Shown here piece after piece: positions 14,084-49,415 of a DNA stretch of 64,000 nt (its first letter is position 1; each line of letters opens with the position of its first letter). The notes under the pieces were generated by a model. The model saw only the letters and a list, made by a program, of their open reading frames with translations, did no database searches and was not told where the DNA came from. Source of the stretch: Siphlonurus alternatus (Eukaryota > Arthropoda > Insecta > Ephemeroptera > Siphlonuridae); contig OX463778.1 of the NCBI GenBank assembly GCA_949825025.1, positions 22,253,551 to 22,317,550 on the forward strand, in the 5' to 3' direction. Both the position numbers and the translations under genes were made by a program.

Positions 14084-17000
14084 CTGAAACAAAAAATGAA
14101 ATAAATTACCACAGAAAATATTCTAAAGAGTAACATACATTATATTTTATGTTGCAAAGAGAATGAATCAACAATTGATGTTCCGGTACACAGTCTATAT
14201 GTAATGCAAAATAGACTTAAGATCACCAAGCTGAGAACGGTAGATCACCAAGTAGATCACAATCTACCAAGCTGAGAATGGATATTTACATGCTATCACA
14301 ATATTTAACAAGTCTTGTTATACCCTGCTGTATTATTTAACAGTAAACTTATTATCTTTCCAAGTTAATAATGTTTTAAAGTGGGATTATCAAATACATT
14401 GTACAGTGTACTGTATGCATATAATATGTAAGGTAAAAATTTATTTATTATCCTTCACTTTTCAAAAGCTGTATTATTCTTACATCACTTTGGTATGACC
14501 AGTTAATTAGGGAAAAGATCAAGCTTGTTTATATTTCACTCAAACTTGATCTTTTACCCCTTTTTTTTAACAATTTATATGTCACGATAAGTGTATCATA
14601 CTTTCTTGTAACACGCTTGACTTTGTAAATGAGATTTAACTAAAAGCTTGTCTTAAATTATGTATTGAAATATATTGTTATAGAGTAACAAGGAAAATAA
14701 ATAAATTCGAGCATATAAGAAACTGAATCTACATAGAAATTGTCTATGTATTCGGTGACAGAAATAATAAAGATATATATTACGGTATGCATACATTATG
14801 TAGGTTCAGGAATAATTCAGTTATCGTGAGGTTACGTTTTTCTATTCCGAAACCGTTTTGCTCTCCCCAACACCTCCCAGACCTCAGAGATCTTAATGTT
14901 GGAGCATAGAGACCTATTTGTGGGTGCAATGTGGACGATCTCAAGGGGGAGGGAGACTGAGCATGCACATAACGGCGCAAGTGGAGGGACGGTAACGTAG
15001 GAAAGTTCCTGATATCAGGTCGAGGAATAAAAAAAACGCACCCAGCACTGTTGGAGCTCAGGTGAGGTGACTCACACACTATTTTCACATGATGGTGTTT
15101 AATACAGCTCCTTTGACGATGCCTCATAAGCATAACATTATCCATCGACAACAGATACGCATTAATAATACTGTTATGTAAACGTACAGTAATGATCCGT
15201 CTTCTCCTTTACTTCTTCTGAGTCAACTTGAACATAATAATACACTGTGTTGCCACTCAGCATGGCAATCAAGTGAGCTATTGATGGCTACTCTGTCTCG
15301 CATGCACGCCAAGTGTCTTAGTCTTTATATGTAAATATACTGTAATGCAAAAAAAAAATAAATAAATATAATGCTCCTATTGAAAGTCTGCTCGGGCTTG
15401 GGCATCATGCATTAATCATGCAGCAGTCTTCAACAGGCTGGGCCTCAAAACTCCAGCCCATGCAGACCTCTGGCTCCTAATGGCCTCTCAAATCTTGAAC
15501 CCATACAGTAATTATAAAAAGTGGCCTTAGCCCCTTTTTACGTGACCCCTGTGGCCTGCATATGCATTATGCCTATATATGTCTTATGTACAGTACTGGT
15601 CTCTTTCCTCCCAGTCCGACCCTACACTATATCTATACATATATGCATACAGTATGCATAACCCAGTGTATTATGCAAATAGTATTTATACTGTACACAC
15701 TGTACATGTATATACATACTGTATTGTATGTTGTATGTATATGCATACTGTACAGTATGCACTGTACAGTATATATGCATAATTATATGATATGTGTATG
15801 CTACGGTAATGGGGTACGAGATAAAGGAGAGGAAATACACGCAATATTTTTGAATTTCGAGAAAGCATTTGATAAGGTGCCACATAATATACTAGTGAAT
15901 AAAATAAGAGAAGCGGCAGGTGAAGAAGGCTTGATAAATTCTATAGAAGATTTTTTAACTGACAGAGTACAGAGAGTCAAGCTAGGGCAAACGTTGTCTG
16001 AGGTAGTGAAGGTTACTTCCGGAGTCCCTCAGGGTAGTGTGCTAGGGCCGCTACTTTTTATTATTTTTATTAATGATATTGTACAGAATTTGGAGTCGGA
16101 GATGAGGCTTTTTGCTGATGACAGCGTAATCTATAGGACAGTAAGTAATAAGCAGGATGAGCAAATTCTACAAAAGGATCTGGAGACAGTGGGTATATGG
16201 ATAGGAGCTAATAAAATGAAGCTTAATGTTGGAAAATGTAGTGTGGTTAAGTTCAACAAAAGAAGGGAGCAAAGTCAGGTTAAATATTTTATGGAGGGGG
16301 AAGAAATCAAATCAGAGGACAAATACAAATATCTGGGAGTAATGCTTCAGTGCAAACTTAATTGGGATGAACATATTAGGTATGTAACCGCAAAGAGCAG
16401 AAGGAATCTTGAGTTTGTAATGAGGAATCTTAAGGGGGCAGGCAGGACAGTAAGAGAAAAAGCATACAAGTCTCTGATTAGACCAATAATGGAATATGGA
16501 TGTAATGCGTGGGACCCGTATAGAGCAAAAGGGAAGAAAGAGATGGAAAAGATACAAAGACGAGCAGCAAGAAGGGTTTTAGAAAAGGGGAACTGGAGCT
16601 TTACCTGTGATAAAAGCAAAATTTATAAGGGAAGAGAGAGTGTGACCAGAATGATAGAACAACTGGGATGGGAGGATCTGGAGGAAAGGAGGAAGCAAAG
16701 TAGACTGACAACAATGTATAAAATAACTAGGAACCAAAAGGGCTGGGAGGAGCTTAGCGATCGTACTGAGGAAGGGCGTTATAAAGGTAGGAGGGACCAT
16801 GATTGGAAGCTGGAGTATAGGAGAAGCAAAAATGATGTGGGCAAGTATTCTTTTTTGAGAAGAACGGTGAGGGAGTGGAATTTGTTGGACTCTGGGCTTG
16901 TGGATGCTCGGAGTGTTGGTGAGTTCAGGGAGGGGCTGAGAGAGTCAGCCGCAAGCAAGCGAGCCACCGTGGTGGAATACCCACAATAGCCGCAAGCAGT

Positions 17001-31735: not shown

Positions 31736-32079
31736 AGATCTGCAGTTCGAAACTGAAATATAAATCTTTGTTTCCACAAGAAAATGTTCTTTATTTTCTT
31801 CTTTATTTTTATTCCAGACGTGTGTCCTTCTTTGACCTATAATGTATAATACTTACAAATTTAGCTAACATTCTAGTATTTTAGTATGTTGAAGTACTAG
31901 AGATTATATTTTAATTAGAAGCTAAATAAGTTAAAGGAAATTAACGCGCATTACTCACGTATTAGCCCAGATAGACTATATTCATAATTAAATTAATAAT
32001 TCATAGCTAGTTTCACATACTAAACGATTTAATTATGTAGTGCTTTTATTTAACATCTTATAAATATTATTATTTTTAT

Positions 32080-32196
<117 letters not shown>

Positions 32197-32577
32197 CATT
32201 TTTTGTAAATGCTATCAGTATGTTATCAATGTTTATCGATAATTTTTTAATTTAATAACTCCTGCATTTAATTTCTTGTCAACATGAGAATAATTTAAAT
32301 TTAACTCCGGAGATAATTTGACGCCTGCAAAATTAAAATCTATGCAACTAATTGAGCATGCAAGTCAAGCGGTTAGTCAACATACAGGCGCTATAAAAAC
32401 AGCAATTAAATGCTAGCTGATTCCTTTGGATTATTGTAATAATATCTTGTGAACTTGAGCAATTACCAACACATTTTACAACACTTTTCTTTATACATCA
32501 TTATTAAATAAGAACACATAGCAACGAAAAGTATTGATGATGTTACAGATCGTTAGAGGCGCGAGTGGACGCGGAAT

Positions 32578-35500
32578 ATGCTCAAGATAACCAAGAAAAT
32601 CAAGAAAAAGCACAAGCACAAGCGTGGTAAGGAAGAGGAGCTCTTTACTCCAGAGGAGCTCGAGCGTTATAAGCAGCAGCAAGCCGAGAAGGCTCAGCAG
32701 GCGGCTGCAGCAGCTGCAGCGGAGGCGCTCGACGAAGCAGCAGGAGGCAGTAGTGGGTTCGTCGCGGGGGACGGAGGTGACGAGGCGGGGGAGGCGGCAA
32801 CCGGGGGCGGTGGGTTCGAGGAAGGTAGCGAGGAGTGGCAAAGATTTAAGGCCCTCACTGCTGGAGTAGATGACATCCTCAAAAAGTCACAAGGAGATTT
32901 AGGTCGTATCAAGTCGACAAGCTTTTTCCAGCGTAAACCTCCTGGATTTACAGAACCTGACAAAGAAAAGAAGAAAAGACCTGAGAGGCCTGCTGCACCA
33001 GTAGTTCCAGACAAACGTTGGGTCGGATTTGAGGAAGGAGCTAGAGCTCAGAACCAAGAGGAGCAAGAGAGTCATCCGGTACAACAGGAAGAAGTAGTAC
33101 AAGAAGTACCGGTAGAAACTTTCCCGGAGGAAGAAGAGGAAGACTTAGAACCGGAAGATGACGGATTATTTGACACCTCATATGTTGACGTAGTAACAAG
33201 TGGTGACATCAAACTTGCTTACATACCAGACAGTCCACCACCGGAAGAAGAGGAAGGAGACGATCCATTTGATACTTCTATCGTTGATAAAGTAATTAAA
33301 CCTACTGAAATAATAACAAAAGACGGTAAAAAGAAAACACTTGTAAGTTTAGGTTGTGCTGTTGATGTATTAACAGGAAGATTAGATAAAGCTATACCAC
33401 AAACTATTGTTGCACCAGGTACTAAAAAACGTCGTGTACAACCAAGAGATTTATTATTTGATGACGCTAATGCAGAAGCTCAATCTGATTTATCTCCACC
33501 GGAATTAACAAGTGTCAATGCACCAAAAAGTTTATTAGATGATGATTCAGAAAGTATACCTGATGATTTACCAGTAAACGTAACAGTACCAGTAGCTGTT
33601 ACACCACAACCTATATTAGAAGAATACAAAAAAGAAGATACAAAATCTGATTTGAAGAATTTGGTTGCTGAATTTGATTTAATAAATACAACAGAACAAG
33701 TTGAAACTGTTGTTAGTGAAGAATCTGATGACGAATTTGCTGCATTAGCAGCCGAATCAGTCTCAAAGAGTTACGATCCATTTGATACTTCGGTCGCTGA
33801 AGTTGCACTTGGGGAAGTCACGAAGCAAAAATTCCCCGGCTCTCCTGACGTTGACGTTCTATTAAGAAGCGACTCACCCTCGTGGGACGGAACAGAAACT
33901 TTACAGAAACAACCACCGAGGCCGCCACCTCCACGACCACAACCAATCAGCAGTGGTGCTGAGGTAGATCCATTTGATACTTCTTTTGCAGAAAATCTTG
34001 TACCAGGAAGAGTTGAATTACAACTTATTGAAAATGAAATATTAGGAGGAGTCACCACAAGTGCTCAGGACGACGACGACGATTTTGATTTCGATCCAAG
34101 AGCAGGAGAAGCACAAAATAAAGTAACTGCTCCTGTAATAAGTAGTGTGACCATTCACGTTTCTGCTCCACTAGACGAAGCCGAGGAAGAAGAGAGTGAA
34201 GAGGGTGAACAAGAACAGGAAGATATTCCAGAGCCTGTTGCTTTGCAACCCGCACATCGCGATCTTCTTGGAGGTAGCAGCACAGATTTATCAACTTTAG
34301 CACACGATCCTATTGAACCTGACGTTGAAACAGAATTTGACGTTGGATCAGAAGATTTTGATCCATTTGATACATCAGTTGTAACCGTACTTGCACCAGG
34401 AAAAGCGGAACTTCGTGTGTTAGAAGAAGAATTACTAACACAGCCAGCTGCTGGGACAGTTGATTTAAGTGACGACGAGTTTGATCCTCGAGGTGGTAAC
34501 GATACTAAACCTGATCTTCTACCAACTGGACACTCAGGAACTATAAATTCAACTGCCAATATAACCTCACCGTCGTCTCGTCCAGACTTACTAGGAGAGG
34601 GAGGAGAAAACGACAAGCCACCAATTTTCAAGCCACTTACTCCGCTGCCTGGCAACCAGAACGACGTATCCCCTGGAGATCCGTTCGATACCACATTTGC
34701 TGAGAACATAGCACCAGGAAAAGCAGAACTTCGTTTAATAGAGAGTGAACTTGTATTAAAAAGAAGTCTATCTGACGAAGATTTTAATCCAAGAGACGAT
34801 ACTAGCGCCGCCGCTACAGTTTCTCGTCGTTACTCCGAGGTGCCCTCAGTTCTTCAGGTCATTGCTACATCAGGTCGTCGCTTTTCTGACGTCACTGGTG
34901 ATCACAAACAGCTGCCGCCCTCGAGCTTGCCCTTGCAACGAGTGGCCAGCCCGCCCCCAGACCGTCCGGACCTTCTTGCAGTTGCTGAGGAGGACGAGGA
35001 GGCACCACACAAGCCACTCACCCCCGCGCAAGAGTCAGCCAGGCCCCTAGCGCAACCAGACGACCCCTTCGATACCTCTCAGGTAAGCCAGCTAATTGGA
35101 TATTTCTTTATACATGAGTAGACAAGGAATTGATGCAGAAAAGTCTTTGTATAGCATTTTTATCTCCCATTGCAATTTATCTGAATTTAAATACATAGTT
35201 GGATGAGGTGTAATTCTCAATCAGCTTTACTATATTGTTATTATTACGTGATTATAAACAAGGTGGGTTAAATTAGATTACATTTTAAATATAATTTTAA
35301 TTAGATTTAAATTTTACATTAATTTGTAATAATTTGCAAATTTTATATCATGTCTACAATTCAATATTCTTTAAAATCCACCTTGTACATTATATTTTTA
35401 TACTATATAAATACTAACTATATAATACACATATATATCTAAATAAATTTAGATAAAAAATTCTAATTGTGGAATTTGATAACAATAAAATACTGATAAG

Positions 35501-38500
35501 AAAATAAAAATACTGATTCAATGAAATAACTCAGAAAACAAGATAATGTGATACTTAAAATAGTATCATAGAATTGTATTTTCATTCATATAGTCCCGGT
35601 GACTCATATCGATTGCATGACTCACAGCGACCAAGGCAGGGTGTGTGTGTGACGTAGATCGTATCGTCGTTTCAGAGTGCTGTTTTATGGTAGCATTACC
35701 GGAGTAATTTAGCATCCACATTTCATTGCATTGATTTAGATGTACCTTAATTGCAAGACGATTTGATGTTTCAGTTCTTTGTTCTTTGGTAAGGAATTTT
35801 TTATAATACAATTTGAAAAACATATTTTCGGCATTAATGTAATTTTATAAAGGAAGTAAAAAAAGTCAAGTTGATAAAAGAGTATCATATTTTTGTAATT
35901 CAATTTATTTTAAAAGTTATATATTATTGAGCTGCTATGGAGAGGGAAACAGAGAGATATAGAGATTCATTTATTTTATATAATTTTTATGAATCGTAAT
36001 ATATGTAGTAAATACATTATATTAAAATATAGATATATTTGTATTATTATAATACAAAGCACAGTATAATAAACAAAATCAATTAATTGATTTAATTCTC
36101 GTCCTCTCGCGTATACAGTACACAGTATTATACTATAACGATAGTCAGTATACGAGTATATTATATATTTTTATAATATCATGAATAGAGCATTAGAATC
36201 TATAGGCATAATATCCCATGCAACTTTTTTTAATAAATAGTACTTTTTTCCAATCGAAAATCAGTTATAAATAAGCTTCTTATCCATCTTATTTGCATGT
36301 CACATGGTACACCAACAGCCATCTGGAGCACCCGGCACGATTGTGGTGTACCGTAAGGGGAGCTTAGATGAATCAAAAGTTCAAATGGTTAATTATATGT
36401 CCTTTCAACACATTAGAAGTCCTGAAAGTGCATTTTTATCTTTTGTGCGGGAGGTGTTTTTTTACCTTTTTACTTGTGCGAGTTGTGCGTGCGCGAACGA
36501 AGAGCTTTGACTTTTAAACTTTGATGAACATTATTATTTTATTTCCTTTTTTTTTTTTTTTTTTTTAATTTTAATATATATATATTCAAATAGGACACAT
36601 GCACGATTTTAGAGCAACTTTTTGAAGAATTAAATTTGCCAAAATATAGAATATATATGTTTTATTCTGTATCTCAAATTGATTAATTTATAAGATGATG
36701 GCTAAACTTAAATACTAGAACATAAAATTGTGATGTACACTGTACCTAAAATTTCACCAAACGACAATACAAGCTATAATGAACGAGCATGAAATTAACA
36801 CATTTAGTGTAATTTATTTTAAATAGTAAAGTTTGGTACAAAAATTAATGTTTAAATGTATCATTAGGAAAAGTCTGTTAAATTATAGCAACTTTTGCGA
36901 GCACCTATTTCACAATTTTTGCTGAAATTTATTGAATGTTTATTGAAAATATACTAAAAAATAAAGAATAAAATGTCATGTGTAAAATTTGTATCATATA
37001 TAATCTAGGGACATGATGTGAACATGCACCTGCACGAATAATAAGCTAGAAACAAATTTTGCATAATTAACAGTATGCGGGTCTGTGCATGACAACAACA
37101 CACCAAAAGCATGATACAATTGTATTCTCGCATCTTTGTCTGTGTTATGTGTTAATTAGTGAGTGCATGTCATTGTATATGTACTGTATATTGTGAAGAT
37201 ATTCTATAGTCGAAAATATAGATTAATTCCATCCAACGCTTATTGTGAATTCAGAGCTGTGTCGTACTTTTCTTAATTGTAATTTGATAAAAAAAAAGTT
37301 ATTTACTAATTTTATTAATATCTATTAAAGTGAACCATAATATATATTTTAAAAACATGCTGAAAATTTTTTCCTTCTAGCTTTTTAATTTGAGACAGTG
37401 AGTTGTAAAAATATATTTGAGTATTATAGTATAATTCAATTATTTGTTTTATCTCACTTTTATTTATAACAATTATACATATTTTTAATTTAACGGGGAA
37501 TATACACGTAGGGTTAGGGTGCGATTTACCCTTTGTAGTTTAATACATATTTTTATTAATTATGCATGCACTACTTCAGTGCAATTTGTATTAAATTCTC
37601 AATAGAGAGAGAGAATAAATAGTTTATATGCATTTTACAATTAATTAATCAGTACCCATTGTGGTTTTGAAAAACTACGAGCGTACGCGTAATCCGATCT
37701 CCCTGAAGCCTTAATAGCAGCTCGATACTGAGGTAGTAATACTTGACTCTAATACGCTCTTTATTACCTGCAGTCTGTCCTTGGCAGTGCTGGATCGATA
37801 AATTACAACCATGCAGCGGCAACACAACACATAGAAATTTGTTTCCACTATAGGTTTTGAAATATTACTTAATACATGCAGTTAGTTATATATAGTTCAT
37901 ATTTTCGGTTAAATTTACGCAAAACTATTTGCAGTCTAAAATAATTAAAATTTTAATGAAAATAATTTAATCTATATAGTTAAAAATGTTAAAAATCAGA
38001 CGAAAAGTAAATTTCAAAAGTCATGCGCTGATTTCACTTCAATGTCCATTTCTTAATTCAAATTAGAATTGACCAAAACACCCTAAAAATGAAATTCTAT
38101 TCAGTGAGTTTTAATGAAATTTCCTTCCATTTTTTCTACATAATTTTTAATTTATATTAAATATACATAATTATAAAAAGTGCTTATAAATATTAAAATA
38201 TTAGAGAGATCCATCAGTTTATACATTTATAATTTTTAACAATTTTTATCTCACGAGCTCAAATAATTAATTAGTTAATTAATTTAAATATCTACTATAT
38301 ATGCAATTCATGGAGACTTTATATTTATTATAATTATATTTCTTACTGATACGTACAAACTTTAAGTCAAACTTAAATTTAGTTCTAACATATATTTTTA
38401 ATTAATTTGATTACTTTCCTTTTTAAAACGAATCTCTAACTTATTATAATTATATACTGAGTACCCTACATAGCCTCTTTAATCAATATACCGTATTATA

Positions 38501-38984
38501 TCGCAATCCAAGTAAGAATTTAAATAACGCTGAAAAATATTCTGCACAACTTTTCAAAGCTCACCACAGTAAAAATGTAAATTTTATATAAATGTGTTTT
38601 CAATTGCTCGAAGATTTTCGAGTAATCAAGTTCTCACGTTTTGTTACTCAGGTAAGCCCGGCGCTCGCTCCCGGTCCCGCCGAGCTACGTCAGTTGGAGA
38701 ACGAGCTTCGTATTGACGAGCCACCCGCGCACCTCACGCGCAGCTACACAGACGAAGACTTCAACCCCCGGGACGCCCCAGGTGCAACCCCGGCAGCTCA
38801 ACAACTACCCACGGAGAAACCAGATCTCCTGCATCTTCCTGACGAGGCCGGTGACGACTTCAAGCCCTTGAGTCCTCAGTTAGACGAGGACGACAATCGA
38901 GATCCTTTTGACACATCTTTCGCGGGAGACTTACTCCCAGGTCGAGCAGAACTAAAGTTACTCGAGGCTGAACTAATAGGATAA
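32578..38984 (+). CDS. stnA: stoned A (first cistron of dicistronic stoned mRNA)
   Basis: Exons 32578-35082 and 38652-38984, joined in phase 0; 2838 nt, 945 aa. The N terminus is strongly basic (MLKITKKIKKKHKHKRGK) then ELFTPEELERYKQQQ, as in Drosophila Stoned A. The body carries seven DPFDT motifs (plus a degenerate LFDTS). Most are followed by a spacer, PGxAEL and an ExEL-type helix, and there are repeated DExFxPR boxes. DPF motifs bind the AP-2 appendage; the protein family acts in synaptic vesicle recycling. There is no internal methionine in the whole 945 aa. The leader begins after an acceptor at 32548, and the ATG has A at -3 but C at +4. Stops TAA-TAA end the frame 5 nt (counted from the first stop) before the StnB ATG. 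Exon 2 itself begins GTAAGCC, directly after its CAG acceptor. Confidence 0.93.
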
Positions 38985-38992
38985 TAAATATG
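38982..38992 (+). promoter_or_regulatory. StnA stop / StnB start intercistronic junction
   Basis: Two consecutive TAA stops (38982-38987), then AT, then the StnB ATG at 38990. StnB is in the +2 frame relative to StnA. No splice acceptor or obvious promoter lies between the cistrons, which share one continuous exon. The spacing is too short for an ordinary separate transcript start. Confidence 0.9.
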
Positions 38993-41900
38993 GATTTCGA
39001 AGCTCCAAATCGTGGGGGAAACCCTTTCCTTACTGATGATGATTTCTCTATGCCAGCTGATAATGGAAATATGGCATCAAATCCTTTTCTTACAGGTGAT
39101 TTTGAAATGCCTTCAGATGGAGGTGCTGAACTTAATCCATTTTTATCAGGAGGACAAGATGATTATTATCAACAAGATACAAATAGTTCATCATCAACAA
39201 ATCCATTTGCAATGTTTGGAGTTGAGGAAACTAATGAGCAGACTTTTCCAATGGGAAATGGCGGAGGATTATTTGGAGAGACAGCACCAGCTCCTGCCCC
39301 TCAAGCTGACACAATGGATTTCTTTGGTGCATCGCCGGAGGCTGAAACTCCCGCCCCAGCCCCCGCTCCCGCCCCGCAACCACAGGTTCAAACAGCTGAT
39401 TTCTTTGCCAGTCCTGAGCGGCCCCCACCCCCAATGCGCCCTCAACCTCCAGTTATGACTCCCAGCTCATTAATTCTCACAGGCGAGGCAGTCGAATACT
39501 GCGCAGAGACTGCCACAATCTTCCAGGGAACGGAGGAGCAAGAAGAAGACAAAGCTCCAGCAATGGTACCTGGCCGACCGCCTCCTCCACGACCAGCCCC
39601 ACCCTCTCGTGAAACACAACAGCTCATTTTGAGCGTTACTGGTGCTATGGAAGCCACTTCTTTTGATCTTTTAGATAGATTACGTGCAACAAAAACTCCA
39701 AGTCCCACACCTATTCGTGACCTTCACTCTCCCAGCCCGACACCTGAGATGAATAGAGATTTTCTTGGAGAACAAGAACCAGATTTTCTTATGGGAGATG
39801 ATACTCCTGCACCACCACCTCCATCAGCTACAATAATGCCAGAACAGCCACAAACGGCTTCAAACTTCATGGATATGTTTGGTGGTGGTGACGATGACTT
39901 ACCTCCCCCTCCCGAACCGGAACCAATTCCAGAAATGGCTCCAGCCCCTGCTCCAACAACTGACTTCTTTAGTCTGTTTGGTTCTGAAGAGCCAGCAGCA
40001 GCACCAGTAGTTCAAGCTACCGCTGCACCGCCGCCCCCGAGGCCCCCAGCACCACCTGTTATCGTGAAACCTCTCACGCCACCGCAGGAAGCAGACCTGC
40101 TTGGAGACTTCTCCTCGCCGAACATTGCAGAAGCCAAGGAGATTACTGCGGCACCTACCATTTCGTATTCGGCGCCTACAGTAGCTGCAGCGCCCCCACC
40201 GGTCCCGGCTCCTCCAAGGGTTCCTCCACGTCCTCCAAGCCCGGCAGTTCCTGTACCGATGACTTCGTTCCCCCCACCTCCATCTACAAATGCGTTTTCT
40301 CCACCTGCTACTGTTGCCCCCATAACATCGGTCCCGCCCCCAGTGTCGACGTACCAGTCGTCTGAAGAAGCATTCCCGCCTCCCCCGACAGCGGCTATGT
40401 TCCAATCACCACCAGCCACAGCAGCGTATCAACCACCTCCAGCCATAGCAGCGTATCAATCGCCCCCAGCCATACCAGCGTACCAACCACCCCCAGCAGT
40501 GTATCAACCGCCACCCCCACAAGCCAATACGTTTATGTCTGCATTCGGAGATGCAACAGCGGTAGAAGCAGAACCAGCTCCTCGAAACTCGGACGATTTT
40601 GATGACTTCGCAGCCAAATTTGAGAGTGCCGCTCAGGATGGTGTCGAGACGCGAGGAGGAGAAAACGGAGACCCATTCTTCGACCCCTTTGGATCATCTG
40701 CAGGAACAGGGGGAGGAGGAGGAGGAGCAGGAGCGGATGATGGTAAGTTGAAACATTTGTAAAAATTAAAAATATTAAAATCAATTTAAATAACATTCAC
40801 AAAATATAAAAGTCATAAAGAATATAATTTGAATTATGAATCAGCGCATTGCAATTTTTTTGCAGCATGCATATTTATAATATAAATTATAGTTTCTAGT
40901 CTTAATGATAGATTCTATAAAATAAGATTGGATATCATGGTTATAGCTTGGGGTGCAGAACCCAGTGACACCGGCAAACCCATGGGTTTCGGTGGTGAAG
41001 AGGACACGTTTGACGCGTTCCTCTCTCTCAACGAGCCGCCTCCCGTGCCGCAGAGCACGCCCGCTCGCAACTCACGTCAGGAGAGCGCTGATTCTGACGA
41101 GGGAGCATCTGATTTCTCCATCTTCATCAAGTAAGTGCAAAAACCCGTATTATCATTTTGAACTGCTCTACATGAATCGCTCTTTCTTAGGCCAAAGATG
41201 GGTGGTTTCACGGACAACACCTCGCCCTCACAGCTGCAAGGACCCGTCCCAACACTTGCACCCCCACCTAAGAGCCCTGTGCAAAACTCAGCATTTGCAG
41301 ACAATACTCCGCGCTTCAACCCCTTTGATAACCAGATGATGGGATCTGGCACGGCCGTAGTGCCTGAGGCAATAGCTATCGCTGCTCCAATCAGTGCAGG
41401 TGAGTGAGGTTGTGTTAATATGATTATCAAGTGTTCACGTTACTATAGTATCGTTAATCACTCAATTTTATAGAGAATTTCTATAAAAGAAGAAAATGCA
41501 TGTATTTACATATACATATTATGTACAAATACTTTTTGTGATAGAAATACCAGATTATAGCTATAAAAAAATTGTCTCGTCATAAAGGTGGTTTTCCAGG
41601 GAGTAATGTTGAGCAGGGCTTTTGTCTTTTGTGCGATATATATAGGCGCACAACCTATATATATACTGAAGTTAAAAAACTTTAATAATAATTGTTCAGT
41701 ATAAAAAACGGAGATTGTTTCCATTACCCCTGCTCCGTATGTAAACTGCTTCGTTTAGGTGTTGAATAAGTTGGCTAACCACAAGGCGATATGCTAAAGC
41801 AGGGTGGACAGTTTCGAATTGTTTGTACTGTATTACACGAACACACACAACCACTTTATCGTAGATAATTGTGTTGTTTCTCTTTGCAAATTTAATTACG

Positions 41901-44900
41901 GAAGAGGTGACTGGAATGACAGAGACATATAGCTTTATTAGAAGAAAATTCGTGTCAACTGAGTTATAAGTGACGTTGAAAAATCGATATTCAATTTCCT
42001 CATTACTAACCGTTAATATGAAGGTAGTTTCTGAATTTCACACTACAAAGGATGACAAGCTCATGATTTCATTATTTTTGAAATTTTAGTCATAAAATAT
42101 TCATATCACTTTTAGATCTTCAATTTATTATATTTTAAAGATAAAAAGGTAATCAAGTTTTGCATATTTCAATAAATTAGTTTTTGTATGATTCTATTTA
42201 TTAAATTACTTGCTTCATGGAAAATGAATTAACATTTTTTTTTCTTCTATTATATAGTATGTATAACAGGTGGAAAAAAAGCAACATTGTGTTAAGCAAG
42301 AGCTGCGCATATAAAACTTAATGTTTAATTAAATTTATATATGTTATATGTATGTTATTAGATACTCTCTGGTGTTATTATCTTTATGTAATTGTTATTC
42401 TAATGTATACGTATTGCTATACAATATATAATTATATACATATAAAATTAATTTATAAATCTAGGTCAGAAAATACATAACAACAATATCTAGAATAATT
42501 TAATTAATACTCCCATTTTAATCAAAATTTGCAATTCCAAACAACGCTCTGACGGGGAGTGATTGGTTTGTTTGCTCAGAGATGGCCGTGCCGCCGGACG
42601 CTGGGGTCACTTTCCAGCGCACAGACTCTCAGGAGACACCACAAACACCGCTCTTCGATGACGACGTATCACAACCTCTCGAGGAGTTCCCGCGTATCAA
42701 CTTCACAGACGAAGGTTGGGAGATGCACCTGAGACAACCCAACAAGAAGAAAATCACGGGCCAGAGGTGAGTGAGCACCAACCATCCGATATTTGGAGCA
42801 TGCAATGATACGTGGGTGTTGTTGACAGGTTCTGGAAGAAAGTCTTTGTCCGTCTTGTTTATCAAGGGGATAATCCCGTACTTCAGCTTTCAAACACAAA
42901 GGATGACAAAGATCCTTTCCAAGAGCTTCCTCTTCAACCGTGCTACTCCATTTCTGATATTGGTAAATATATTATTTTATAATATATAGTTATTAAGAAA
43001 TTATTGCAAATTGGATAGTAATTTAAAATCATCTTAATTTAATAGTAAGTCGATGATTTTACAGTTTTTTTAAACCTAAAATACTTAAGGGTAAAAAAAG
43101 GTAACGCCACCAATGTTAAAAAAAAATCCCTCTCACAAAAATTCTGAAAAAAATTTAAAATGTTCTCCTCTATACCCCCTATCAGTACCTAAAATATCAG
43201 GTATACAAATACGATCTAGTTTTTGAGTTATAAATTTTTAAAGTTGACTACTTTAACATGGAGAAATGAAACTCCCATGTTAAATTGGTCAACTTTAAAA
43301 ATTCATAACTCAAAAACTAGATCGTATTTGTGTACCTGATATTTTGCCTACTGATAGGGGGTGTAGAGGAGAACATTTTAAATTTTTTTCAGAATTTTTG
43401 TGAGAGGGATTTTTTTTTAACATTGGTGGCGTTACCTTACCCTTAAGAAAAGTATCATTCATCTTGATGCTTTTTTTAAAATTAAAGCCACATATGTTTT
43501 GTCATGAATTGAGGAAAAATCGAGTCGACATATATAGTTCGATGAAAATATTGATACAATATATATTAATTACTATCTATGTCATATTCATGTAAAGTTA
43601 TATAATTATCTATATATAATTAATAAATAAAATTAAATATTAAATTAAAATATTTATATTTTGTAAATTTATAAAAATAGTAACTTCCTTATTCATGTGA
43701 AACTATTTTCAAATATCAGCTTTGCTATTTTATTATATTATTTTTATTTTGCTATTATTTTCATGAGTTTCTCGTTGCTTAATTTTAAAAATAAAACGAA
43801 GGTCGATTACTGACATTGAGCTCGGTATTGTGCAGGTGCGCAGCAGTTCGACCAGTACGGCAAGATCTTCACAGTAAAGCTGCAGTACGTGTTCTACAAG
43901 GAGCGGCCGGGGGTGCGACCAGGACAGGTCACCAAGGCGGAGCGGATCACCAACAAGCTGAGTCAGTTCGCCGCGTACGCCATTCAGGGTGACTACCAGG
44001 GCGTCAAGGAGTTCGGCAGCGACCTGCGTAAACTCGGCCTGCCTGTCGAGCACGCACCACAGGTCAGTACAACTAAAGGGATTTTAAATGACGATCATGT
44101 TTTATTGTTGTTAAATGTGCCGTTTGTGTGTAAATATAATATATGTAGCATATAAGATGGTTGGTGTCAAGACAATTAACGTTATATGAAACTTGATTAT
44201 TACTAATTTGATGCATATTGATATTAAGAAATAAGTTTTTAACTGTGTAAATTGCAAAAGAATATTTTAAAAACTATAAAGAGAAACGCTGAAAATTAAT
44301 TAATTGATTTCATTTTAAGTTTCTGGACACAAGTTGGTTTACTTAAATCGTTAATTTTATGAGCAGATATTGCTACTAGTTAAGAATTATTCAACTTGTC
44401 AAATAATTTTTATTATTGATGAGCATTTATTTTTCTGTAGTCTCAGAATTGAAGAATATTACATTTTAATTATGATTCGATGTACCATTTCTTGATTGTA
44501 TACAATGTTTTACAATATAAGTACGAAATCAAGTGTTTATAAATGCAGTGATTTATTTCTGTATATTTTTAAGGGATTATATACACTTTTTTTACCCTAC
44601 TACATACGTATATTTGGATTATTTTCTCAACCAGGCGCGGATCCAAGGGGGGGGGGGGCGATGGGGGCGATCGCTCCCCCTAAAAGGTCCCAAAACACAT
44701 TGAAGGTGTTACCACCCCCACCCGTCGCCCCCCCCTCCCACCCCAAAATTTAACATTGCGGGATAGGGCACCGCCCCCCCCCCCCCGAGCCGCGGGCTGG
44801 ATCCGCCCCTGTTCTCAACAAAATTAAAAATAGCATATTATCGTTATGAGTCATATTTAGATTGAATTTTTTTATATACAGTTCAAATTATTTTGTATAA

Positions 44901-47900
44901 AATTTCTTCCTGATTTCTGACAAGCATTTTACAAAAAGGGTTAAACATTATTTTTTGCGGACGATTCTTACGATTATTGTTGTTTTTCTTGTGTCCTCAG
45001 ATTTCTCAGCTGCTGAAGATCGGCTCTCAGAACTACGAGACGATGAAACAGTTCAGCGTGACGATTGAGGAGGCTCTGTTCCGCATGCCGGCACACCGCG
45101 ACCGCGCGCTCAACTACAAGATGGAAGAGGTGCAGATCACGGCCGTGGACGAGCTTTATCTCGAGCAAGACAAGACAGGTCACGTGTGCAAGCAAATCGC
45201 ACGTGTCAGAATCTTCTTCCTCGGTTTCATCAGTGGTGAGCATAGACACAAAAACCTGTCTCAATTTTTTTTAAAATATTCTATATATTATTAAAAAGGC
45301 AAAATTCTTCTGATTCTATACCGAAAATTCACCAAGTTGACCAAGAGTAAACTCAAGTGACACAAATTCAATGATTCCTTCATGTATAATATACAGTAAT
45401 CTTAATAGCACAAGTAAAAATGTCATAAATTTTAATTATAATTTTAATATTACCATTTATTTTTCTCGTACAAAAGCCACTGAATTGTTAAATATTAATA
45501 AAAAATAGGCATCAGCTTCAAGTTAGAAATTATTATTGGCTATTATTGTATATGCAGTAAACAAACAAAATTTATCAATGAGTTATTATAATTATTGGAT
45601 AAGATTACTAATTTCAATTGCCTCTGGAATGTATGCAAGAAAGATTACAAGTATTTTGCAGTCTTTTTTTACCGTTAGTTGAAAGATGTGCTGTCGTCTT
45701 GTTAGTCTAGTGGGAGAAATGGAAAGTGCATTTCACTTTCGTTCGTCGTGGCACAAAAAAAAAAAAAAAAAAAAAAAGACAACATCACAATGCCATGATA
45801 CAATGCTATAAATTTAAGTAAATTTATTGTTTAATATTCATTGAATATTAAAATCCTTTGGTGCCACTTAAAAACACTGCTATATAATTTTGTGCTCCAG
45901 GAATGCCGGACCTGGAACTCGGGGTGAATGACATCATGCGACAGGGCAAGGAGGTGGTGGGTCGTCACGACATCATCCCCGTCATCACGGAAGAGTGGAT
46001 TCGCCTCGAGAAGGTCGAGTTTCACAGCAGCGTGCTCAACAACGAGTACGAGGACACTCGTGTCATCAAGTAGGTTGTCGTCACAAAAGGATTGGACTGA
46101 TCGCAGTATTGATCTCCTTACTGTTTACAGGTTCAAGCCACCTGACGCTTGTTACATAGAATTACTAAGATTCAGAGTTCGACCACCCAAAAATCGAGAA
46201 CTGCCTTTACAATTGAAAGCTGTTATTTGTGTAACTGGAAATAAGGTAATTTGCACAACAATATAGGGCAAACGTACAGTTGTCGCCTTGAAAAATGCCC
46301 TAGCTGCATGTGTTATATTATTACGGATTATTATTATTATGATTAACAAGGCTGCAAAGAGAAAATTTTTGAGGCGACGACTGTACAATCAAAATGACAA
46401 TAAAGTGTTCGTTTGCAGACTTGTATGACTCTCCACGCCCAAAAGATATATGCAACCAGTTACAGAAAATTTGCATTCATGGAGAGTTACATCAAGGCTG
46501 AAGTCAAATATATATATGAATGTTGGTATATAGATTTTGAGTGTATACTTTATTATTGTCCACCATATCGCCATGAGGTTATTGGTAAAGTCATCGCCTC
46601 GGAAAATTTCCCTTTGCGGCCTTGTTAATCACCATGCCCCGTAAGAATAACACAGGGCATGGTGATTAATAAGGCTGCAAGTGGGAAATTTTCCAAGGCG
46701 ACGAATGTAGCATTAAAATTGAGTGCATTAAATTTTGTGGCATATTATAGCACGCAAGGAGAAAATGGCCTTACTTACTCCTTTGTGCCCGCTAAGCAGC
46801 GCCATGTTGCAACATTCTAAATTTATATCCAATCTTCTACATCATCAGACACTCGATTCCGATTCATTAGAAGAAATGGACGCCATTTTGCCCCTGCGGC
46901 ATATGTAACCCGCTTTATTTTTATGATGAAAAAATTGCCTAACATCAAGGCGATATAAACACGTTTTCAATTCGTTTTATAAATCAATATATGTTCTCAA
47001 AGAGAGGCGCTTAAAAGGGGGGGGGGGTAATTAAGAAAATAATGGTGATTAGTTGATAATTTTTGTTTATAGAAATTTGACTATTTTTTAATCAAATTTA
47101 TTTTATCAGTATAATCCTTAAAAGATTTGAAATGTTAACTTATGCTGCCGTTGTGAAGGTTAATCCCTCGCCTCCTCATATTATTTGCAATGATAAACTT
47201 TTCACCAAGAAAAACCATACGCCAGCTCCGGCCAATGAGATCAATATATTCTGACGCAGTTCTGAGTTTCCGAGCTCTTGGGTATAGCTGTGGAGTGACA
47301 AACTCCAGATTTAAAAAGCTAAGTCGTTACATTGTTGTTGTTCAGGTAGAGATAAAGTGCGATATCCTGGTACCTGGATTCTCGAGTCGCAAGCTGGGAC
47401 AAATTCCATGTGAGGACATCATGGTACGCATTCCGATCCCAGAGAGCTGGATCTATCTGTTTCGCGTGGAGAAACACTTCCGTTACGGCTCCGTCAAGTC
47501 AGCTCATCGCAGGTACGTGATAATGAACAATTGAGATCTCATGCAAAGTCAACATTTGGAAATATCAATAAAAAAAAAAAGAACATGTAGAAAATAAAGT
47601 AACAAATGAGTCGAAAAAATGTATTTAAAATTGTGACGTAATTATAAAATAAAAACAACTACAACAGCTGACATTTTACTATGTTAATATATTCAGTTTT
47701 GTTTAATTCATTATTGGGTCAAAATTCATTTGACGTAAAAAAATGTATAATTTTTTTTGTTATAACTACGTATTTAATATTTTACTAACCGAAATAAATA
47801 TTTAACAATAAAATTTAATATATAAATAATGTCATCATAACAATATTATGATGACAGAATATTTATTATAATGTTTATAGGAATTAATTACAAACAAAAA

Positions 47901-49415
47901 ATACTGCCATGCGTATACATTAAATTTACGGTCATTGAAAACTTGATCAAAACTATATAGAAAAGAAAGGATCTTCTATTATATGACCCATGGATATTAA
48001 GTATTAGGAGAGATTAGATAATAAAGAAATATAAATATAAAAAATAAGGTAAATGTTAATAATAACACATTCCTTGAACTGATTAATGTAATTAAAAATC
48101 ACATCTCACGCAAATCAAACTTTATATTTTCCCACTAAGGGTGCTGCTAAAGTTGTCAATTATTTGTAGGACGGGCAAGATCAAGGGCATTGAACGCTTC
48201 CTGGGCACTATGGAGACCATGGAGCAGTCGCTGATCGAGGTGACGTCCGGCAGCGCCAAGTACGAGCACCAGCACCACGCCATCGTGTGGCGCATCAGCC
48301 GGCTGCCCAAGGAGGGACAAGGTGAGTTCCTTGCCAGTGATTGAAGCAACACTAATTTTAATTTCTCCCGTGTCAGTCAAGTAGTTTTGATTTTAAAAGC
48401 TAATTGGATTATTAATGAGGTGGCTCATGCTTATTTTAAAGTTACATTAAAATTTTAAATCCATTTTAATTTTAATTATTAAGATATAGTAGATATAGTA
48501 AATGTATCTTTAACTGATTTAATTTTAATATTCATCTTCATGTTTTAAAAGACAAAACGGACTAAAAAAAAATAGTTTCTTGATAGATACAACATATTTA
48601 AAACTGTCTTTTATGCGAAAATGCAACAATTTTTAATGCAAATCGTGCATGCGAAATATAAAAATAAAAGGTTTCTTTTTGAAATAATAATACATTTGCA
48701 TTTTGTCAAAATAAATAATAAAAAAAAAACATGGAGAGGGGTGGGGGGATTACATTTTCAAGGTGTTTAAATTTATAAGACTGCAAACATGCACATTTTA
48801 TGATGGGAAAAATGTTCAAAATTTACGTTTTATATATTATATGCGAACAGGAATAATAATAGTAAGGTATTATACATTTTTATTTTGCTTTATAAAGGAT
48901 GTCGACGAGTACAAATATTTATTTGTGCGTGTCTAAAAAAAAAAAATGAGCTCTCTTAATACTGTAATTATCTTTAATATCACCATTATATGATATCACT
49001 TATCATAATATAACTTTTAAAAAACGTGTCTATATAAGTATTTAACTTTTTTTGTTCTATTTCAGGTGCCTACACAAATCATGAATTTGTTTGTCGTTTT
49101 ACACTAACATCATATGATCAAATTCCCGATGAACTAGCAAAATATTGTTATTTAGAATTTACAATGCCATCAACACAAGTGTCTCATACAACTGTACGAT
49201 CTCTATCTGTTTGTGGTGACCGAGATGAGGATCCCCCAGAGAAATGTGTGCGTCATTTAGCACGCTTAGAGTACAGGATAGAAATTGAGCACACTCAAGG
49301 TTCAAATCCCAATAGTTACATCTCTGCTACACAAGTGAAGCCCGCAGCAGTACCAGAATCAGTAGCCGAGAAGCCGGAACCGGAAAAAGACTCGGACAGT
49401 GATTCTAGTAGCTAA
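38990..49415 (+). CDS. stnB: stoned B / stonin (second cistron)
   Basis: Exons: 38990-40742 (sharing an exon with the StnA end), 40947-41130, 41191-41399, 42580-42766, 42829-42962, 43836-44062, 45001-45235, 45901-46069, 46131-46245, 47346-47512, 48170-48321, 49066-49415. The sum is 3882 nt, 1293 aa, close to Drosophila StnB. NPF motifs at residues 11-13, 31-33, 49-51 and 71-73 plus a later RFNPFD bind EH-domain proteins. A long Pro/Ala-rich region follows. A stonin-homology and mu-homology domain runs from about residue 778 (RFWKKVFVRLVYQ, QYVFYKERPGVRPGQ, FKPPDACYIELLRFRV, VEIKCDILVPGF, EFVCRFTLTSYDQIP). Function known for the family: clathrin adaptor for synaptotagmin sorting in endocytosis. 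The tail is acidic (DSDSDSSS). The ATG context (A at -3, G at +4) is strong. Confidence 0.94.
43084..43447. repeat. near-perfect fold-back MITE (StnB intron)
   Basis: Arms of about 175 bp start cttaagggtaa and end ttacccttaag. Pairing is nearly perfect through gaacattttaaatttttttc and aaaaactagatcgtatttg to a centre at about 43265. It lies between StnB exons ending at 42962 and starting at 43836. High arm identity suggests a young insertion. Confidence 0.9.
44632..44811. mobile_element. hAT-like MITE, copy 2 (StnB intron)
   Basis: 180 bp, ends caggcgcggatcc and ggatccgcccctg, with an exact 8-bp duplication ttctcaac on both sides (44624-44631 and 44812-44819). The interior is nearly the same as copy 1. 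It sits about 190 bp upstream of the StnB exon starting at 45001. Confidence 0.93.
46272..46389. repeat. fold-back element, diverged copy (StnB intron)
   Basis: Ends cgtacagttgtcgcctt and gaggcgacgactgtac pair, with a diverged centre containing tattattatta. It starts about 25 bp after the donor at 46245. A related palindrome lies at 46584. Confidence 0.7.
46584..46707. repeat. fold-back element, well-paired copy (StnB intron)
   Basis: atcgcctcggaaaatttccc pairs with gggaaattttccaaggcgac. The inner arms ttaatcaccatgccc and gggcatggtgattaa are perfect. It shares the end motif (tcgcct) and the centre (ggccttgttaatc) with the copy at 46272. Confidence 0.85.

Follow-up and report, generated by a model that had tools for sequence, protein, structure and literature searches.

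Here we describe the stoned locus of the mayfly Siphlonurus alternatus, in which two coding regions, StnA and StnB, follow one another on the plus strand of a 64,000-nucleotide stretch of contig OX463778.1 (assembly GCA_949825025.1, positions 22,253,551 to 22,317,550), hereafter the window, to which all coordinates refer. Both gene models are predicted, with open frames throughout and splice sites placed from the sequence and the reading frame. StnA comprises 945 codons in two predicted exons (2838 nt with the stop). Exon 1 (32578..35082, codons 1-835) opens with an ATG in the context GAATATGC and ends at the predicted splice donor CTCAG/GTAAGC; it is followed by an intron of 3569 nt (35083..38651) and by exon 2 (38652..38984), which closes with a TAA, a second TAA standing directly after it at 38985. 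The StnA stop and the StnB start codon (38990..38992, context AAATATGG, frame +2 relative to StnA) are separated by 5 nt; the sequence upstream of this ATG is TAATAAAT and the junction reads TAATAAATATG. The StnB coding region (38990..49415, plus strand, 1289 aa with 35 Met) runs through 12 predicted exons: 38990-40742, 40959-41130, 41191-41399, 42580-42766, 42829-42962, 43836-44062, 45001-45235, 45901-46069, 46131-46245, 47346-47512, 48170-48321 and 49066-49415.

StnA, with its DPF repeats and lysine-rich start, matches 325 proteins at E <= 1e-3, the best 120 of which were listed; the matches come from many insects, for example protein stoned-A of Anabrus simplex (E 5.5e-154). In StnB, residues 700-1289 are 72-82% identical to stoned-B proteins among the 120 matches listed, the C-terminal mu-homology region (PF00928) is present in the StnB homologues, and NPFL motifs occur in the predicted protein. 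A Pfam scan (E 0.01) of the StnA homologue P0002 and of the first StnB exon returned no family. In midpoint-rooted trees, the StnA of the window stands with P0001 (support 0.98) and next to two Cloeon dipterum models (0.98), and its StnB C-terminus groups with Cloeon (support 1.0). The locus being orthologous with that of Drosophila, the stoned message is taken to be dicistronic here as well.

The StnA frame holds a single ATG, and Met stands only at position 1 of the protein. Twelve other ATGs occur within the coding sequence, all of them in frame +1 and all closed by a stop after 2-15 codons. They make up eight short frames on the plus strand: 32870..32902 (10 codons), 33158..33193 (11 codons, nested ATG at 33182), 33365..33373 (2 codons), 33461..33508 (15 codons, nested ATG at 33470), 33518..33538 (6 codons), 33539..33577 (12 codons, nested ATGs at 33542 and 33563), 33728..33748 (6 codons) and, last, 34034..34045 (3 codons). 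From 34037 to 38989 the predicted spliced message (34037-35082 joined to 38652-38989, 1384 nt) contains no ATG in any frame up to the StnB start. Our recount thus agrees exactly with the first-pass annotation of this DNA on the lone in-frame ATG, on the positions and frame of the other twelve, on their nearby stops and on the AUG-free stretch. It had also put the chance expectation over that stretch at about 20, a figure which stands for a null of base composition (20.5 out of frame and 2.8 in frame, 1000 shuffles) and falls to 11.1 once protein and codon usage are held fixed.

Could such scarcity simply reflect a disordered protein rich in Asp, Glu and Pro, poor in Met and encoded with GC-rich ends? 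Two null models bear on this explanation by chance and composition: 5000 synonymous shuffles in which protein and codon usage were fixed, and a shuffle of codon order. Over the whole of StnA, frame +1 carries 12 ATGs against 25.3 expected, and none of the 5000 synonymous shuffles was so low; over the last 1380 nt it carries none against 11.1 expected, and again none of the 5000 reached zero. In frame +2, where Cys and Trp, being rare, allow an expectation of just 1.7, the count is also zero; this agrees with a compositional origin, and there is no case for a purge of that frame. For frames 0 and +1, however, composition is refuted by the synonymous shuffles, by the Met content of StnB N-termini (2.18%) and by the tree counts given below. 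With the codon-order shuffles and the StnB and intron controls also against it, this explanation was ruled out, and we give it practically no weight.

The signal can be followed down to individual synonymous choices. For a codon of the form XAY to create an out-of-frame ATG, its third base must be T and the first base of the following codon must be G. All 28 XAY codons followed by G in the last 1380 nt have C, and none has T, at the third position, whereas the 48 followed by another base have C in 19 cases and T in 29 (Fisher p = 1.4e-8); of the other pyrimidine-ending codons followed by G, 50 of 70 have T. Furthermore, among out-of-frame triplets with an expectation of at least 3, the +1 ATG is the most depleted in the 3' half of StnA (z = -5.4). 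Where exon 1 is AT-rich (nt 580-1210), T ends 9 of 17 XAY codons followed by G, against 32 of 34 pyrimidine-ending codons of other kinds followed by G (p = 0.001) and 15 of 20 XAY codons followed by another base; judged by local codon use, avoidance of ATG is therefore present there too, but partial. By comparison, the whole StnB coding sequence carries 22 ATGs in frame +1 against 21.0 expected, with no depletion, and the StnA intron, with 59 ATGs in 3569 nt against about 71 expected from dinucleotides, has not been purged. Since StnB is undepleted and the intron has kept its ATGs, the constraint seems to act on StnA as a spliced message.

The two ends of this intron share a 12-nt direct repeat, CTCAGGTAAGCC, at 35078-35089 and 38647-38658, of which the window holds no other copy; exon 2 consequently opens with a donor-like GTAAGC directly after the acceptor. 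A donor-like sequence directly behind an acceptor is also seen at recursive splice sites. Splicing again from this GTAAGC would delete the StnB start.

The absence of Met extends far beyond the mayfly. Three protein searches listed 280 proteins in all, at most the best 120 each, so that they form a sample in which close relatives recur. From them we assembled 201 StnA sequences: 133 StnA-only proteins, 67 cut from models that also hold StnB, and the sequence of the window. A stricter sorting by pattern (158 sequences) missed 38 listed StnA candidates, and all counts use the set of 201. Named sources comprise mayfly, katydid, grasshoppers, termites, stick insects, thrips, bugs, lice, beetles, wasps, ants, bees, moths, butterflies, flies, five decapods and one amphipod. 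No Met follows the first in 154 of the 201 sequences, and interior Met amounts to 14 residues in 9 proteins out of 174,376 residues; in the 182 proteins with a canonical start it is 9 residues in 6 proteins out of 158,504. At the 2.18% Met found in the N-terminal parts of StnB (148 sequences, each without its last 620 residues), about 3,800 would be predicted in StnA. Neither Cys (0.43% in StnA, 0.18% in StnB N-termini) nor Trp (0.22% and 0.18%) is depleted. Because the sequences are related, changes were also counted by the Fitch method on trees of 194 StnA and 145 StnB sequences: 14 of 31,300 changes lead to Met in StnA, some of which may be start codons of shortened gene models, against 702 of 23,429 in StnB N-termini, while exchanges among Leu, Ile and Val number 2327 and 894, respectively. 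StnA orthologues with the expected number of internal AUGs, which the first-pass annotation had named as evidence against its reading, were thus not encountered for the in-frame class. The six named crustacean homologues (P0258, P0261, P0266, P0272, P0273 and P0280) all have Met only at position 1.

The exceptions deserve attention in themselves. Of the nine proteins, five look like gene-model errors, and these hold 10 of the 14 interior Met: P0003 continues past the exon-1 boundary into the intron, P0186 and P0201 begin with foreign sequence, and P0247 and P0264 contain local non-homologous stretches. Three lineages look genuine, namely P0035, the two Temnothorax proteins P0094 and P0139, which share the site, and Dinoponera P0153. 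The residue before their Met is Pro, Pro and Cys, which by the genetic code places a pyrimidine at -3, as would follow from some 28-35% of StnA residues; this fits scanning, although with three events it is suggestive at most. Met is also found among the last five residues of 33 of 134 StnA-only sequences, always as ESEL-Met and with 8 parsimony changes on the tree. The frame opened by such an AUG spans one to three codons, and the preceding Leu would, from the genetic code, again put a pyrimidine at -3. In five wasp proteins a second Met stands at residue 5, beside the start, and in three proteins an upstream extension moves the usual start Met to 18. These exceptions appear to fit scanning.

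The 67 fused StnA-StnB models among the 201 (for example P0124-P0275, 1,538-2,528 aa) are joined by bridges that differ between species, and some are marked LOW QUALITY; many of them are therefore probably annotation joins. In many wasp, ant and bee bridges ESEL[MIV](x)K or N is retained ahead of the StnB start, a pattern that would suit an intron with the StnA stop inside its GTAA donor.

A pattern so strict within the StnA frame invites an explanation that leaves StnB aside, in which in-frame AUGs would be removed because they yield N-terminally truncated StnA, or because Met harms the protein. In-frame Met is indeed the most strictly avoided class, and the sole one whose conservation could be tested. 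Nevertheless, the lack of any XAT among 28 codons before G in the 3' half is synonymous and lies outside the StnA frame, so that it stays unexplained; moreover, Met is tolerated at the very end of the protein and Cys is not depleted. We consider this explanation quite unlikely.

The extent of the cleared region bears on another possibility, in which an internal ribosome entry site (IRES), or a promoter in the StnA intron, feeds StnB and StnA is not scanned at all. An intron of 3.6 kb has room for a promoter. Such a device would need only exon 2 to be cleared, yet the last 1046 nt of exon 1 likewise lack ATG, and no in-frame Met follows the start anywhere in exon 1. In addition, no known structured RNA or IRES family reaches the Rfam gathering score in 32000-39400, which excludes the described families only. 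Altogether, we regard internal entry or a separate promoter as very unlikely.

The short frames that remain in the first half are a subset of what StnA could hold. Out of 54 potential ATG sites, 12 are kept and 42 avoided. The frames of the kept sites average 7.9 codons (maximum 15), against 24.0 for those that the avoided sites would open; among 20,000 random draws of 12 sites from the 54, values as extreme arise with a probability of 0.0002 for the mean and 0.0001 for the maximum. A purine stands at -3 in 3 of the 12 kept sites as against 25 of the 42 avoided ones (p = 0.036), and G stands at +4 in none of the former and 4 of the latter.

The start codons of the two cistrons share an A at -3 and differ at +4, with C for StnA and G for StnB, so that the second start is in the better context at that position only. 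The difference recurs among the relatives. All 182 recognisable StnA starts of the 201 sequences have Leu (82) or His (100) as their second residue, hence +4 is C or T and never G; of the 124 StnB starts that could be placed among 148 sequences, 112 have a second residue with a G codon, +4 being deduced from that residue. Leu and His are unlike residues whose codons can share C at +4. Residue 2 of StnA may be limited by selection on start context rather than on the protein.

Upstream of StnA, a candidate ORF of 17 codons with two tandem ATGs (32537..32590, plus strand) overlaps the StnA start and would be transcribed only if the 5' UTR is contiguous. The motif TATAAAAA at 32392-32399 would place a possible transcription start near 32420, and an acceptor-like TTACAG ends at 32549. 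The candidate might be a genuine upstream ORF that carries ribosomes past the StnA AUG. A long tandem run of TTTA, read by eye at approximately 32080-32195, lies some 400 nt ahead of StnA.

Taken as a whole, the scarcity of AUG very probably reflects leaky scanning through StnA to StnB, with short frames, mostly in weak context, being tolerated. StnA would be initiated part of the time and leaked past part of the time, and the 40S subunits that skip its start would have about 2.8 kb to scan before they can initiate StnB. Leaked ribosomes that met an in-frame AUG would be trapped in a frame closing 5 nt short of the StnB start, and for that reason this class would be purged. Out-of-frame AUGs of the first half could be tolerated if their frames are short (15 codons at most) and mostly of weak context; 40S subunits that resume scanning after them would still have about 1.4 kb or more in which to reacquire initiator tRNA. 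Leaky scanning would thus make in-frame AUGs the worst, remove out-of-frame ones near StnB, and leave short weak frames far upstream. The first-pass annotation had proposed selection that lets scanning ribosomes pass StnA and reach StnB, and this proposal gains support from the synonymous depletion in the 3' half, from the undepleted StnB and intron, from the short and mostly weak residual frames, and from the near-absence of interior Met in the 201 sequences.

A different use of the junction has to be weighed here: termination at the StnA stop could be coupled to reinitiation at the StnB AUG, the depletion being a side effect. The two codons do lie close together, and according to PMC5972666 reinitiation follows a long ORF in caliciviruses, where the overlap of the two ORFs is 1-14 nt. 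The same source adds that reinitiation after cellular upstream ORFs falls with ORF length and that the calicivirus process needs special mRNA motifs, for which no search was made here. Coupled reinitiation would leave in-frame AUGs neutral, as they share the common stop, yet this class is the most strictly purged. Coupling of this kind is, in our view, unlikely.

Several observations nevertheless weigh against leaky scanning, or at least limit it. By the gene-wide shuffles, depletion over the first 1458 nt of StnA is weak (11 ATGs, the twelfth straddling the cut, against 14.0 expected; p = 0.09 synonymous, 0.17 codon-order). Within the 5' part alone (26 sites), frame lengths differ only marginally (0.04 by the mean, 0.03 by the maximum, 0.19 in a rank test) and the difference in -3 context gives p = 0.053, while 3 of the 12 kept ATGs do carry a purine at -3. 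The context of the StnA AUG, with its A at -3, is not clearly weak. The out-of-frame depletion rests on one species, because orthologous DNA was found neither in viral_contigs (query P0002) nor in genome_contigs (query P0008), which is no surprise for genes of animals. Splice sites are predicted, as is the dicistronic message, the three lineages with interior Met look genuine, and the overlapping upstream ORF at 32537, if transcribed, would alter the flow of ribosomes. The length of the cleared region is a puzzle too under leaky scanning: reinitiation in yeast requires far less than 1.4 kb, and the graded tolerance may therefore also reflect, in part, local AT pressure.

The mechanism is not new, since leaky scanning of this kind has been described before and the locus is orthologous to the Drosophila melanogaster case (stnA/stnB; Wall, Phillips and Kelly 2005), in which the first cistron is deficient in internal AUGs. 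PMC11892635 states that the first cistrons of Drosophila stoned and Snapin are depleted of internal AUGs and have start contexts diverged from consensus, and that reporters indicated leaky scanning (citing Wall et al. 2005); PMC3372440 adds that in-frame AUGs attenuate the second ORF of Drosophila stoned (citing the same work). The remark in the first-pass annotation that internal Met is absent from Drosophila StnA as well is thereby broadly borne out. Green-algal bicistronic loci, which are unrelated genes, likewise show fewer AUGs upstream of ORF 2 and a weak ORF 1 context, with leaky scanning backed by in vivo mutation (PMC11892635). Rice tungro bacilliform virus and badnaviruses have the same layout, in which leaky scanning passes about 900 nt through long ORFs (I-III) free of internal AUG; in the rice virus a short ORF within ORF II was harmless (PMC5902531). 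This system is viral, its path is about one third of the 2838 nt of StnA, and no homology is implied.

What is added here is the mayfly relative, with measurements of its synonymous depletion in the 3' half and of its short residual frames, together with the extent of the in-frame rule across Pancrustacea, down to crustaceans, the synonymous-site test and the pattern of exceptions. In the literature searched, some result lists of which were available in part, no account of Met absence in StnA outside Drosophila was found. Two 2012 papers describe StnA as without relatives outside insects; the crustacean homologues contradict that statement.

Two further elements lie in the window. An inverted repeat in a StnB intron (43098-43438, two arms of 164 nt that are 95% complementary, with a 13-nt spacer) looks like a palindromic mobile element, and an open frame at 15562-16986 with a reverse transcriptase domain (PF00078, E 6.9e-22) is probably a retroelement.

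The observation is confirmed and well explained, as a striking and widely conserved instance of a known mechanism. More tentatively, and with somewhat less than even confidence, we propose that the StnA family has been methionine-free since before the split between insects and malacostracans, not for the sake of its own function but as a scanning track of about 3 kb to the next cistron, and that the short weak frames of the first half would be way stations permissive for reinitiation, tuning StnB. If this is true, the architecture of one mRNA can strip a whole protein family, in insects and crustaceans alike, of one amino acid, and the locus would constitute a natural test of the range of 40S scanning in animals, over about 2.8 kb of a region translated by other ribosomes. 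In turn, the exceptions, which lie in weak context or among the final codons, give an evolutionary hint as to which AUGs scanning ribosomes are able to disregard.

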